From: a virus
Virus record (IMG/VR): IMGVR_UViG_3300021409_000102
Coordinates: 1-41,422 of that record
Strand: one strand, 5' to 3'
Length of the DNA: 41,422 nucleotides
Numbering within the stretch: position 1 is the first letter of the stretch; every line of letters begins with the position of its first letter. Below the pieces are notes generated by a model. It worked only from the letters and a program-made list of their open reading frames with translations, was not told where the DNA came from and did not search any database. The position numbers were made by a program, and so were the translations under genes. Positions 4,072-16,134 of this stretch are shown piece after piece.

Positions 4072-4361
4072 AGCGGAACGGAACGAAATGGAAAATATCC
4101 TTGTAAACAACACAAATACAGCGATTTACAGCGGTTTTAGCCGTTCCAAATCGTACCGCACACTCTGTTTAAACCCATTTAAAGCGGGTGTTTGCGTTCC
4201 GCTTAAATCCACGCAGTACGTTCCTGTGTGCGCAACGATAACACCATTGTAAATCAATAGATTAACATAACAAGCGGAACGAAAAGGAACGATTTTTTAA
4301 CCTGTAATATATTGATTAACAGCTTAATACAAACGTTTTTAATAAAAAACAGCGTTCCGCT
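4072..4361 (+). repeat. GGAACG iteron cluster, candidate replication origin or operator
   Basis: This gene-free gap holds eight copies of GGAACG or its complement. Four are the longer AGCGGAACG: forward at 4072-4080 and 4273-4281, reverse (CGTTCCGCT) at 4195-4203 and 4353-4361. Short forms are at 4080-4085 and 4286-4291 (forward) and 4142-4147 and 4219-4224 (reverse). The order is ++ / --- / ++ / -. The intervening DNA is AT-rich with short direct repeats (ACAGCG twice, GATTAACA twice). It lies directly after the replication genes, as phage origins often do. An operator array for an HTH protein is the alternative. Confidence 0.6.
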
Positions 4362-13035: not shown

Positions 13036-13581
13036 ATGAACGCAAAAGCAATATTATGGCCACAAGGCCGCTACAACCCTGGGGGAATTACTCAGGTGTT
13101 TTATGGTTATAAGGAAGACTTTTTGAGTTTCCCAGTTTTAGGAGATCCTGAAACGGCACTTACGCTTGAAAGCTTAGTTAGCTATGCTACGGCTATCATC
13201 ATGAAGGCAGGAAAACAGATTTTCCAACTTTACTGCACAGTAGAGCAGGGTGAGATTAAATCTACTATGGTAGGTCCTCGTGACGGTAAAGGATATGAAA
13301 ACATGCTTGAGATTTCTTTCCCTGGAAGTGAAGCAGAATTTCTAGGCTTTAAAGCAGCAGCTGCTAATCGCGAACTAATTTTCTTCGTTAAAGAGAAAAA
13401 CGGTAAGGTTAGGGTTTTGGGAAACTTAGAAGATCCTGCATTTTTCGAAAATGATGATTCTACATCAGGTAAGGCAATTGCAGATGGTCGTACATCTAAG
13501 TTGACTTTCAAAGCTTCAGGTGCAACTCCTGCACCAATTTATACACCGGCTTTAACTTCATTGTTGGCACCAGCAGCTTAA
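13036..13581 (+). CDS. Phage structural protein, tail-tube-like paralogue B (181 aa)
   Basis: Paralogue of the protein at 9530-10003 (see its aligned segments GKGYENMLEISFPGSEAEF, FFVKEKNGKVRVLGN, ATPAPIY). The N-terminus WPQGRYNPGGITQVFYGYKE differs from that of paralogue A. Moderate length, all-beta look and absence of cysteines in the core fit a major tail tube or head decoration protein. It is followed by a perfect AAGGAGGT that drives the next small gene. Which paralogue is the tube cannot be decided from sequence alone. Confidence 0.6.
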   Translation: MNAKAILWPQGRYNPGGITQVFYGYKEDFLSFPVLGDPETALTLESLVSYATAIIMKAGKQIFQLYCTVEQGEIKSTMVGPRDGKGYENMLEISFPGSEAEFLGFKAAAANRELIFFVKEKNGKVRVLGNLEDPAFFENDDSTSGKAIADGRTSKLTFKASGATPAPIYTPALTSLLAPAA

Positions 13582-13593
13582 GGAGGTACTGAT

Positions 13594-13785
13594 ATGAAAA
13601 AGCCATTATTATTTGATGAAAAATATGAATTAGTCGGGGTGGAGCCCGGCATTCATGATGTTGCAGGTTTTGGTAAAACTGATTTAACCAACATGGATGT
13701 TGAAGAAGCGGACCATTTGTATAAAGCAAAATTCCCTTTCCTAAAGTTGAAATCGAAAACCCCGCCTGAAACACCAAAAGCATAA
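13594..13785 (+). CDS. Hypothetical protein (63 aa) with a strong ribosome binding site
   Basis: AAGGAGG ends 8 bases before the ATG, unusually strong for this genome, suggesting high expression. The product has no hydrophobic segment; residues 15-45 (VGVEPGIHDVAGFGKTDLTN) and the Pro/Lys-rich end (KSKTPPETPKA) give no family. It closes the capsid/tube operon and is followed by a strong terminator. Position suggests a small virion or assembly protein. Confidence 0.6.
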   Translation: MKKPLLFDEKYELVGVEPGIHDVAGFGKTDLTNMDVEEADHLYKAKFPFLKLKSKTPPETPKA

Positions 13786-13814
13786 GCTCTCGTCCCGTTT
13801 TAGTTTTAGTTTGG

Positions 13815-13844
13815 AAAACCGCCCGTAATTGGGCGGTTTTTTTT
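13815..13844 (+). terminator. Intrinsic terminator of the head operon
   Basis: AAAACCGCCC (13815-13824) and GGGCGGTTTT (13831-13840) flank a 6-base loop, followed by a continuous T-run to 13844. Classic rho-independent terminator. Confidence 0.9.
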
Positions 13845-13854
13845 ATGTTTGCGG

Positions 13855-13983
13855 TGCAACTAAGTTTCTCGAATATCTCGCTTCACCGGCATACGGTAAG
13901 GCGTGGACGTGCCATAATTTCGACGTGTTCGGAAAAAAGCCGTCAATAGGGGTATTCGTACACTTAGTTGCAGGCCTTACCGT
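13855..13983 (+). other. Interleaved inverted repeats: candidate pseudoknotted RNA or dispersed repeat
   Basis: Arm A TGCAACTAAGT (13855-13865) pairs with A' ACTTAGTTGCA (13962-13972); an inner CGAATA (13870-13875) pairs with TATTCG (13952-13957), extending the same helix. Arm B ACGGTAAGGC (13893-13902) pairs with B' GCCTTACCGT (13974-13983). The order A-B-A'-B' means the two long helices cross, a pseudoknot with only 1 base between A' and B'. B' is followed by TTTTTATATG, so the B/B' helix also resembles a terminator just before the ATG at 13990. The element is GC-richer than its surroundings and has no convincing reading frame. Either a structured leader or non-coding RNA, or a REP/MITE-like repeat. 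Confidence 0.6.
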
Positions 13984-13989
13984 TTTTAT

Positions 13990-14250
13990 ATGCCAAACTT
14001 ATCAGATGATCAGAGATTTGACAATCACATTCTTTTCCAAAGAATTGAATTGATTTTTAAGCCAGCAACACGTTGGCAGGATTGTACTATGCCCTTAACT
14101 AATGCTGAAGTGGTGGAAAAGGTAATGGAAGAACAGGGGATGTTCTTCGATTCACCTGAGCAGATCATCCTGGTGATGGAAGAGATGCGTTTCCTTTATG
14201 AACTCAACGAGCATAATCGAAAACATTACTGGTTATTAAATCCTGCATAA
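13990..14250 (+). CDS. Hypothetical protein (86 aa)
   Basis: Starts 6 bases after the last arm of the structured element, so its translation or transcription may be controlled by it. A later ATG at codon 34 (MPLTNAEVVEKVMEEQG) is an alternative start. The C-terminal 50 residues are acidic and helical (SPEQIILVMEEMRFLYELNE). No family recognised; position after the tube-like gene would suit a tail-assembly protein. Its stop overlaps the next ATG (TAATG). Confidence 0.5.
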   Translation: MPNLSDDQRFDNHILFQRIELIFKPATRWQDCTMPLTNAEVVEKVMEEQGMFFDSPEQIILVMEEMRFLYELNEHNRKHYWLLNPA

Positions 14251-14411
14251 TGGCCAAAGAAAATAATTGCAAAGTATGTGGGGCAAAAACAACCGTTGTA
14301 TTTAATATTAATTTTAAAGCGGTACCAATTTGTGATGATTGTGCCAGGACAATATTCTTTCAGCAGGCTACGTACTATTTAACGATATCGTCTACTAAGC
14401 AGCGTAAGTAA
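14250..14411 (+). CDS. Small zinc-finger protein (53 aa)
   Basis: A short gene coupled to the previous one by TAATG. Two CxxC pairs (CKVCG at residues 7-11 and CDDC at 28-31) predict one treble-clef or ribbon zinc site; the middle FNINFKAVPI is strand-like and the C-terminus TYYLTISSTKQRK is basic. Such mini zinc proteins are common in phage genomes, with unknown targets. It is the last gene before the DUF4062 cargo gene. Confidence 0.55.
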   Translation: MAKENNCKVCGAKTTVVFNINFKAVPICDDCARTIFFQQATYYLTISSTKQRK

Positions 14412-14446
14412 TTTTTATTATTTTAGCAGAATCTAAATTGATAGAA

Positions 14447-15385
14447 ATGGCAAAACCTAGAATTTTTGTAAGTTCAACTTACTATGATCTGAAGCACATT
14501 AGAACAAATCTTGAATCTTTTATCGCTTCCTTTGGATATGAACCAGTGCTGTTTGAAAGCGGAGATATCCATTTTAGTCATGATAAGCCATTAGATGAAT
14601 CCTGTTATACTGAATTACAGAATTGCCATATGCAAATTTTGATAATAGGTGGGAGCTATGGAAGTCCGGAATCTGGAGTTGTCTTGACAGAAGAACAACA
14701 AACGGATCAATATTTCAAATTTAATTCTATCACTAAAACGGAATTTCAAGTTGCATTAAAGCGGCAGTTGCCCATATATTTTTTCGTGGAAAATGGTGTG
14801 CTTTCTGAATATACAACTTATAAAAAGAACAGAGAAAACACGGAAATCCACTATGCGCACGTTTCAAGTGTGAACATATTTACCCTTTTGGATGAAATTT
14901 ACGCACTGAAAACGGGAAACTTTATTAGAGGATTTACGAAATTTGAAGACATATCTAATTGGCTAAGGGTTCAATGGGCACATTTGATGGCCGAATTTAT
15001 CAATAACCGCACTGAACAAATTGCATTGAGTAGTTTAAATATCGGGCTAGAGAAATTAAATTTGATAACTAGTAGTTTGCAGGAATATACTGAAGCAATT
15101 TTGACAAAGGTAGAGCCTGATAAGGCTGTGAGTCTTAAAGAAAATCAAAAAAATAAAGTTATCCATGGACATATTGATAGACTCTCGAGAGAGGGTTTTT
15201 TCAAATCTATATTTGAAATTAGATCCGATATTACAGACCAAGAATTATACGATATTTTCGTTAAATCTGAGGACCTATCCGACTTTGTTTTACGATCCCT
15301 ACCTGAACCTGAAATGAGAAAAATATATAAACATTTATATAAGCAAGTTTGGGAAAATGATTTTGTATATCAAAAGATGATATAG
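14447..15385 (+). CDS. DUF4062-domain protein, probable accessory/defence cargo (312 aa)
   Basis: Residues 2-90 match DUF4062 (PF13271): PRIFVSSTYYDLKHIRTNLE, FGYEPVLFESGDI, SCYTELQNC and LIIGGSYGSPESG. After KTEFQVALKRQLPIYFFVEN comes a helical half (residues 180-312) with no NTPase or nuclease motif. Family knowledge: the domain has a Rossmann-like fold and is often found N-terminal to signalling or STAND-type proteins, some of them immunity-related. ATG at 14447 is preferred to TTG at 14438. It is not a structural gene yet sits between head and packaging modules, followed by a fresh late promoter, which marks it as inserted cargo. Confidence 0.7.
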   Translation: MAKPRIFVSSTYYDLKHIRTNLESFIASFGYEPVLFESGDIHFSHDKPLDESCYTELQNCHMQILIIGGSYGSPESGVVLTEEQQTDQYFKFNSITKTEFQVALKRQLPIYFFVENGVLSEYTTYKKNRENTEIHYAHVSSVNIFTLLDEIYALKTGNFIRGFTKFEDISNWLRVQWAHLMAEFINNRTEQIALSSLNIGLEKLNLITSSLQEYTEAILTKVEPDKAVSLKENQKNKVIHGHIDRLSREGFFKSIFEIRSDITDQELYDIFVKSEDLSDFVLRSLPEPEMRKIYKHLYKQVWENDFVYQKMI

Positions 15386-15386
15386 C

Positions 15387-15422
15387 TGTCATTTACCACA
15401 AATAAAGCAATTGCCATTTTTG
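15387..15422 (+). promoter_or_regulatory. Late promoter 3 (packaging module)
   Basis: TGTCATTTACC (15387-15397), 16 bases, CCATTTTTG (15414-15422), 4 bases, ATG at 15427: the same 40-base motif-to-ATG distance as promoters 1, 4 and 5. The second box differs from CGAnnTTCG at positions 2 and 8. It lies just after the DUF4062 stop. Confidence 0.6.
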
Positions 15423-15426
15423 ATCT

Positions 15427-16134
15427 ATGGCAATTGCATCTATTACAGCTTGGCTACTTTCGCCCAATCCAAATTTCATCCATGGGAAATTGCTTTTCCA
15501 ACAATATGGTAATGACAAGTTAGTCGAAACCATTATCAATTCTGGATCCGGGGCTTATCACTTCTCTAAACTTCGTGCAGCTCTCGAGAAGATAAACGAA
15601 GCTTGTGGCATCGAGCCAAAGCAAATTGTTTACACACCGCCACCGGTTCCTGTTCAGCCTGCTCATGCTGAGCCTCCAACTACCAACCTTATAATAAAAT
15701 CAAAGCCTGATCTCGATGATGCACCTGCAGAAATTTGGGCTTTTCGTAATCAGAAAAATGCAGTACATGCAGAAGCCAGGCATTTATTTGTAACGGCTAA
15801 ATTGATGGATTCAAAAGAGCATCGATTAGAAGCTGCTTTGAGAATACTGGATTTGATGGATCAGGTAAATGAATATTGGCTGATCATTGATACCTGGAGA
15901 GAAACCGGTAAAATCCTTGAGCTACAGAAAGAGGAGGCTATTGCTGAAGTATCGACACTAACCATTCAAGAATTACTCCAGGAACAAAAGAATCTACCTT
16001 CATACATTTCAAAAGCTCGTAAAAGATTCAACGATGCAAAGGATCCAAGGAAAAAGACTAAGGCCTTAGCAAAAGTCGAATCATTAGTTTCTCGTTTAAC
16101 CGAGGTGAAAAGGAGGATCGATGGGCTTGTTTAA
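15427..16134 (+). CDS. Phage protein upstream of the packaging genes (235 aa)
   Basis: No family recognised. A Pro-rich linker (YTPPPVPVQPAHAEPPTTN, residues 70-88) separates an N-terminal helical part from a C-terminal helical part rich in Lys/Glu (residues 130-235, e.g. ELLQEQKNLPSYISKARKRF). The last 50 residues could form a coiled coil. The predicted transcript of late promoter 3 begins at its ATG. Position, two genes before terminase, suggests a packaging or virion accessory protein. Confidence 0.6.
   Translation: MAIASITAWLLSPNPNFIHGKLLFQQYGNDKLVETIINSGSGAYHFSKLRAALEKINEACGIEPKQIVYTPPPVPVQPAHAEPPTTNLIIKSKPDLDDAPAEIWAFRNQKNAVHAEARHLFVTAKLMDSKEHRLEAALRILDLMDQVNEYWLIIDTWRETGKILELQKEEAIAEVSTLTIQELLQEQKNLPSYISKARKRFNDAKDPRKKTKALAKVESLVSRLTEVKRRIDGLV

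Follow-up and report, generated by a model that had tools for sequence, protein, structure and literature searches.

Pseudoknots are found in translational riboswitches and ribosomal-protein leaders such as preQ1-II, SAM-II and rpsO/S15. To our knowledge, few regulatory RNAs are known in the phages of Bacteroidota. In phage T4, the gene 32 leader carries a 5'-terminal pseudoknot of ∼28 nt, after which come more than 40 nt of operator without structure (PMC535899). A different arrangement is found in type III toxin-antitoxin and AbiF modules, which consist of a promoter, a structured non-coding RNA of 100-130 nt, a terminator and, no more than 170 nt away, a small gene (PMC12373285). In Bacteroidota, mRNA structure close to the start codon reduces initiation, and in F. 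johnsoniae structure in the start-codon region tunes initiation without Shine-Dalgarno sequences (PMC6847099). Because these bacteria translate without such sequences, the question of switching by mRNA structure is largely open in this phylum.

Here we describe an element of ∼130 nt in a 41,422-nt viral contig (IMG/VR record IMGVR_UViG_3300021409_000102, referred to in full as the window), which we would class as a new RNA family, though one whose kind is known, namely a structured phage leader or non-coding RNA. It resembles the preQ1-II, SAM-II and rpsO leaders in having the 3' strand of a pseudoknot by the start site, an overlapping alternative hairpin and conserved core nucleotides, but unlike them it has no match in Rfam 15 and was found in phages only. 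As in T4 gene 32, a 5'-terminal pseudoknot in a phage leader is followed by the initiation region, an arrangement for which translational and possibly autogenous control is proposed (PMC535899); here, however, the RNA is far longer and has a multi-helix core, the pseudoknot itself abuts the AUG, and the downstream protein is no more than a candidate binder. The element also shares with the 104 candidate motifs obtained by comparative genomics (PMC2864571) the character of a conserved intergenic structured RNA of unassigned role, and differs from them in having no Rfam match at gathering or permissive thresholds: the window gave none at the gathering threshold, and permissive hits fell on the upstream terminator only, none above threshold. 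No tRNA or tmRNA was found, and openly readable papers, a set without one large phage RNA screen, gave nothing on the element. An HDV-like or other ribozyme topology was rejected, as the 1-nt gap between the A' and B' strands does not fit HDV and Rfam gave no match.

Fold of the element and its relatives

All features are given on the plus strand of the window. Both helices of the original prediction are perfect: P1 (helix A) joins 13855-13865 (TGCAACTAAGT) to 13962-13972 (ACTTAGTTGCA) over 11 bp, and is crossed by a 10-bp pseudoknot (helix B) between 13893-13902 (ACGGTAAGGC) and the B' strand at 13974-13983 (GCCTTACCGT). The nested 6-bp helix described with them is present but belongs to a longer one, the 10-bp P2 (13870-13879, CGAATATCTC, with 13949-13958, GGGGTATTCG, G-U pairs included). 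Folding places three further helices inside P2. These are the P3 hairpin (13880-13902), made of P3a (GCTT/AGGC) and P3b (ACCG at 13885-13888 with CGGT at 13894-13897), whose formation excludes the pseudoknot; P4, with its 5' arm (GACG + GC) at 13906-13912, followed by a conserved ATAA, and its 3' arm at 13939-13944; and the P5 hairpin (13918-13934, TTTCGA/TCGGAA). From the 5' end the RNA thus runs through P1 and P2 to a junction bearing the P3 hairpin and the P4-P5 arm, and the crossing B:B' helix joins the 3' side of P3 to the strand just 5' of the start codon, B' following directly after P1. P1, P2, P4 and P5 are also supported by the covariation alignment described below. The conserved core bases are ACGGTAAGG.G, ATAA and AAAGC. 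As had been claimed, the GC content of the element (47%) exceeds that of its surroundings (38% in the window, 37-39% in the two neighbouring genes).

Lone 10-bp inverted repeats are not rare within the window, so that the weight of the argument rests on the interleaving of the helices and on their conservation. A descriptor combining a TAnnTTT[GA] box, a helix A starting at most 9 nt from it and a helix B' at most 20 nt after A' gave the element a score of 26.0. In agreement with the earlier view that the A-B-A'-B' order is unlikely by chance, the arrangement, taken with its promoter box, had no equal in 3.37 Mb of dinucleotide shuffles, where no score reached 23; 0.97 Mb of reversed sequence gave 11 matches of at least 19, the top one at 23.2. 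The folding energy is also low (MFE z-score −4.5, with 0 of 200 shuffles folding as well), and the first relative of the element has a z-score of −7.0.

Relatives were reached through capsid, terminase and P3/pseudoknot-core pattern searches. The capsid-protein search gave three related contigs, among them one (L002/L005) that carries the element, and the pattern search gave two true new members among 13 new loci, the rest being chance, together with one further locus of an already known phage. Further members are L030/L042, L041, L036, L045, L009/L046 and L003/L043. Others sit in a prophage of Pedobacter terrae DSM 17933 (L035/L048), a prophage of Pedobacter sp. Leaf250 (L047) and a Sphingobacteriaceae MAG (L049), which points to Pedobacter and other Sphingobacteriaceae as the host group. 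In all, RNA relatives occupy the same place in ∼10 phages and prophages of this group, with a shared gene order of a ∼60-aa gene, a terminator, a promoter box, the RNA and the start codon of an 80-90-aa gene. A blastn search of the element against 50,697 phage records returned only a 25-nt chance match.

The same layout recurs in the Microcystis-labelled phage Mea-Yong924-1, at the same locus (descriptor 30.8), in Flavobacterium phage laban6-1 (29.8) and in contig L015 (31.1), which the RNA model does not recognise; L015, L058 and L060 are counted as members by architecture alone. In Cellulophaga phage Ingeline_1, a descriptor match whose score of 21.5 is within background sits in the gap before an 86-aa gene, between the capsid and terminase genes. 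Judged on architecture, the family extends to the Microcystis-labelled phage and perhaps to Flavobacterium, Cellulophaga and other phages. Contig L092, whose terminase is a 54% relative of that in the Microcystis-labelled phage, has no such element. L004/L038 has P1, P2 and a P4/P5-like TATA...CAAGGC hairpin in the right place and no convincing pseudoknot, and was left outside the counts; a descriptor match on the minus strand of L014 (19081) lies inside a coding region and was dismissed as chance. Mea-Yong924-1 itself (L059, MZ447863.1) has a Bacteroidota-type −7 box as well as capsid and terminase relatives in Bacteroidota prophages, so that Microcystis may not be its true host, which could instead be a Bacteroidota companion.

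Compensatory change was measured in an alignment of nine members covering 38 pairs, pseudoknot included, and built with an RNA model (R1), to whose P1-P5 structure the alignment was fitted. Standard pairs fill 97.0% of the cells, and 15 of the 38 pairs show changes on both sides (40 such cells), counts in which the near-identical sets window/L005 and L047/L048/L042 each stand for several of the nine sequences. The covariation score was 0.436, compared with a mean of 0.189 for shuffled alignments (sd 0.021; 0 of 500 as high) and at most 0.088 for slid controls. Covarying pairs fall in P1 (four), P2 (three), P4 (three) and P5 (four), the last of which is wholly rebuilt in L005 through compensatory changes (GAGGAA/TTCCTC). 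P3b is kept in all nine members bar one mismatch in L047, and being nearly invariant is without covariation support of its own in this alignment. The pseudoknot is likewise mostly invariant here, with 100% of cells paired, one covarying pair and three G-U variants. Beyond the nine, it pairs despite an entirely different sequence in L045 (AGCAAGGG(G) with (T)CCCTTGCT, unrelated to that of the window), L003 (GCCTAGG/CCTAGGC) and L055, a member assigned by architecture (TGCCTGGACT/AGTCCAGGCA), and also in L015, L058 and L060. R1 detected L036, which was outside its training set, at E 1.3e-7. The check named with the original prediction, which uncompensated variation of the arms would have refuted, comes out in its favour: covariation is strong in P1, P2, P4 and P5, and no member lacks pairing in the pseudoknot. 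That the element is a conserved structured RNA, with compensatory changes beyond controls, is very well supported by these alignments.

The same data bear on whether the inverted repeats, sited as they are between the head genes and the terminase, might instead act as DNA, either as a packaging, attachment or protein-binding site or as a REP/MITE repeat. The compensatory changes include G-U pairs, which favours RNA over a DNA element, and the promoter register described below is strand-specific. The suggestion of a REP/MITE-like insertion, part of the original prediction, fails on copy number. There is one copy in the phage's own genome and one in each Pedobacter or related genome with the prophage, one of which has a second, weak match (E 0.065); among 401 Sphingobacteriaceae genomes the RNA model matched 3, and in a phylum-wide set of 395 it matched 1, always in related prophages, so that the element is not a repeat. 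We regard the DNA readings as largely refuted and give them hardly any credence.

Predicted transcript ends and the downstream gene

The element starts after a rho-independent terminator (13813-13842; 13 pairs, loop of 4, T-tail) that ends the unit of the upstream 63-aa gene and is kept in L005, L047, L048, L041, L045, L046 and L049. The U-tract of this terminator abuts the RNA promoter, and in most members overlaps its −7 box. In the −7 box of Bacteroidota sigma-A promoters, T stands at −12 and A at −11, TTT fills −8 to −6 and G comes at −5 (PMC6847099). A corresponding TAnnTTTG box lies 4 nt 5' of helix 1 in 14 of the 14 members examined (TATGTTTG at 13844-13851 in the window; the variant TATATTTA in L036), and in all 14 the predicted +1, following the published register (PMC6847099), coincides with the first base of the part of P1 that members share, which in the window is 13856. 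This register indicates that the structured RNA is a primary transcript beginning with its own helix. As no good −33 box was seen upstream of the RNA, the promoter is a prediction. The earlier proposal of a structured leader or non-coding RNA with its own promoter is supported, as are the pseudoknot and its position between a terminator and a closely following ATG; both that terminator and the T-run 6 bases before the ATG at 13990 are where they had been reported.

At the 3' end, about two thirds of members have a U-run after B': it is present in the window (TTTTTAT), L005, L047, L048, L042, L041 and L036, interrupted in L046 and L049, and absent from L045, where TATATG follows directly, L055 (CCATG) and L003. 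In 12 of 15 members an ATG lies 2-7 nt 3' of B'; in L003, L058 and L060 the distance is 19-21 nt. The ATG stays close in L045 and L055 despite the loss of the U-run. In the window, the partner of B' lies 71 nt upstream across other helices; the pseudoknot helix, enclosing 65 nt, is unlike a normal terminator hairpin. Of the idea that the element could act as a terminator, the U-run after B' in the window stands, but L045, L003 and L055 have lost it and yet retain the close ATG, which makes termination doubtful as a common function.

These ends could also belong to a free-standing non-coding RNA, an sRNA or part of an RNP, that has its own promoter, is locked by pairing at both ends and finishes at the U-run, the gene being a mere neighbour or encoding a partner protein. 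With P1 at the predicted +1 and B' at the 3' end, both ends would be protected, and the U-run after B', interrupted in L046 and L049, would provide the stop. Moreover, the RNA is 87% identical between the window and L005, where surrounding DNA and flanking genes are at about 66-74% (between the window and L047 the RNA is 88% identical, similar to the genes), and the downstream genes differ in L003, L015, L058 and L060. Against this stand the members without a U-run, the short and constant distance to the ATG, the long interior of the pseudoknot helix, and the arms, for which no convincing start-codon match in trans was found in the window or in two Pedobacter genomes. We consider a free-standing RNA a possible but less probable reading.

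The downstream gene (13990-14250) encodes 86 aa, is conserved beside the RNA and is the gene we propose to be regulated. Homologs of its product were found at 12 loci; a search of viral contigs with the single protein sequence gave none. Proteins of this type have 80-90 aa and a motif NEHNxKxYWL. AlphaFold predicts an H-E-E-H-H-E-E fold (pLDDT 93) whose structural matches are weak and mostly to winged-helix DNA-binding domains; this prediction makes nucleic-acid binding plausible only. The counterpart gene in the Microcystis-labelled phage matches the small-protein profile (hhalign 89%, E 2.3e-6), and that in Ingeline_1 does not. A different gene follows the RNA in L003, L058, L060 and L015. 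In L003, a ∼4.5-kb defence island separates the 62-aa upstream gene from the RNA, which indicates that the RNA associates with the small gene and not with the upstream one; an extra 128-aa ORF lies between the RNA and the small gene.

The succession of promoter, structured RNA, terminator and small gene is also that of AbiF and type III RNAs (RF03085, ToxI, CptI), and the element could thus be the RNA antitoxin of such a module, with the toxin gene after the terminator, a layout identical to the published one (PMC12373285). Unlike those RNAs, it is a single copy without tandem repeats and matches neither RF03085 nor any other Rfam family, while its downstream protein is a predicted winged helix rather than an endoribonuclease, with no Pfam or PADLOC match to a ToxN- or HEPN-type toxin. 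An antitoxin role is accordingly very improbable.

Proposed control at the start codon

Starting from the fold, the location and the predicted promoter register, which are observed, we infer regulation, with its ligand and target: the RNA is, somewhat probably, an autonomously transcribed 5' leader that controls translation of the next gene. The middle of the pseudoknot strand doubles as the 3' side of P3b (CGGT, 13894-13897), whose partner ACCG recurs in sequence at the end of B' (CCTTACCG); P3b and the pseudoknot are therefore mutually exclusive and could exchange by strand invasion. L045 rewrote both helices and kept this overlap (GCTGTGA/TCATAGC and AGCAAGGG/CCCTTGCT). In an open state, P3b would be formed and the strand before the AUG free. 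In a closed state, CCUUACCG would invade P3 from an AAGG:CCTT toehold to complete the pseudoknot of 10 bp, which would bury the region 6-16 nt ahead of the AUG, and the 30S subunit could not load on an mRNA devoid of a Shine-Dalgarno sequence. Where a U-run follows, the closed form might terminate transcription as well. The trigger might be the downstream winged-helix protein, by autoregulation of the kind seen with T4 gene 32; other candidates would be some host protein or a small ligand bound in the conserved core. Of these the winged-helix protein is the simplest, but autoregulation by it cannot hold where the downstream gene differs, as in L003, L058, L060 and L015, and an autoregulator common to all members therefore cannot be one gene product.

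The members with other downstream genes offer a different route to the start codon, in which A' would leave A, pair with a copy of A at a nearby start codon and stop translation, window-type members having lost this target or replaced it by the pseudoknot. A' matches the downstream start-codon region over 11 nt in L003, 11 nt in L015, 16 nt in L058 and 15 nt in L060, each time better than it matches A (p <1/300 each versus shuffles). The loci where the P1 5' arm recurs at the start codon of a downstream ORF are L003 15213-15365, L015 3870-4070, L060 38163-38320 and, on the minus strand, L058 30007-30165 (reverse-complement coordinates). In the Microcystis-labelled phage the P1 arm has a 12-13-nt match (ATGCATCCGTCAGAAT; L059 12230-12250 and 23395-23477), of 12 nt at the start of another, distant gene annotated as a 'DNA repair protein' (CDS 12234). 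No such match exists in the window, L005, L047, L048, L041, L036, L045, L046 or L049, and three of the four cases (L015, L058 and L060) are family members by architecture only. As the general mechanism, we find antisense switching improbable; the A' matches suggest that the start codon may be covered in another manner too.

Returning to the leader that controls its next gene, we tentatively extend it to a new class of phage RNA switches spread across distant Bacteroidota phages. Such an RNA would fold from its first transcribed base, bury the start codon of the following gene with its pseudoknot or P1 arm and respond to a ligand or protein, and it would have moved between genes, winged-helix and other small ones, with P1 and the pseudoknot rewritten; this broader proposal is possible rather than probable. 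If the RNA is riboswitch-like, Bacteroidota phages would sense something through RNA in late-gene expression. Its compactness, strong covariation and predicted +1 start, together with the cultured hosts Pedobacter terrae DSM 17933 and Pedobacter sp. Leaf250, make it directly testable.

Cargo and repeats near the element

Variable cargo is found around this locus. In the window, the region after the winged-helix gene (14250-15385) encodes a 53-aa zinc-ribbon protein and a DUF4062 protein that are absent here in L005, and looks like an insertion hot spot. The defence-type cargo of L003 (10594-15047), placed in the structural operon, encodes an NsnA/DUF262-like protein and a CAP12/Pycsar TIR protein with TPR repeats. 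Upstream of the element, the 63-aa gene is preceded by a strong Shine-Dalgarno-like sequence (AAGGAGGT, 13579-13594), which is unusual for a Bacteroidota phage.

Other repeats were seen in the window and its relatives. An 11-bp inverted repeat at 15407-15437 (GCAATTGCCAT/ATGGCAATTGC) spans the start of the next conserved gene (235 aa, ATG at 15427) and, on sequence, looks like a start-codon-sequestering hairpin; at the start of this gene in related phages, a 9-13-nt complement is kept in 12 of 13 cases (not in L045), with a conserved TGTCRTTTA before it. Four copies of the 9-mer AGCGGAACG, alternating in orientation, lie within 4072-4361 (at 4072, 4195, 4273 and 4353), possibly as regulatory or origin repeats. 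Intergenic regions of the related contigs L009 (7131-7347), L010 (3249-3383), L012 (81-276) and L014 (11622-11835) are also dense in repeats, both inverted and direct, of which ACTGTTACA and GTTCCAACGTTCCAAC are examples.
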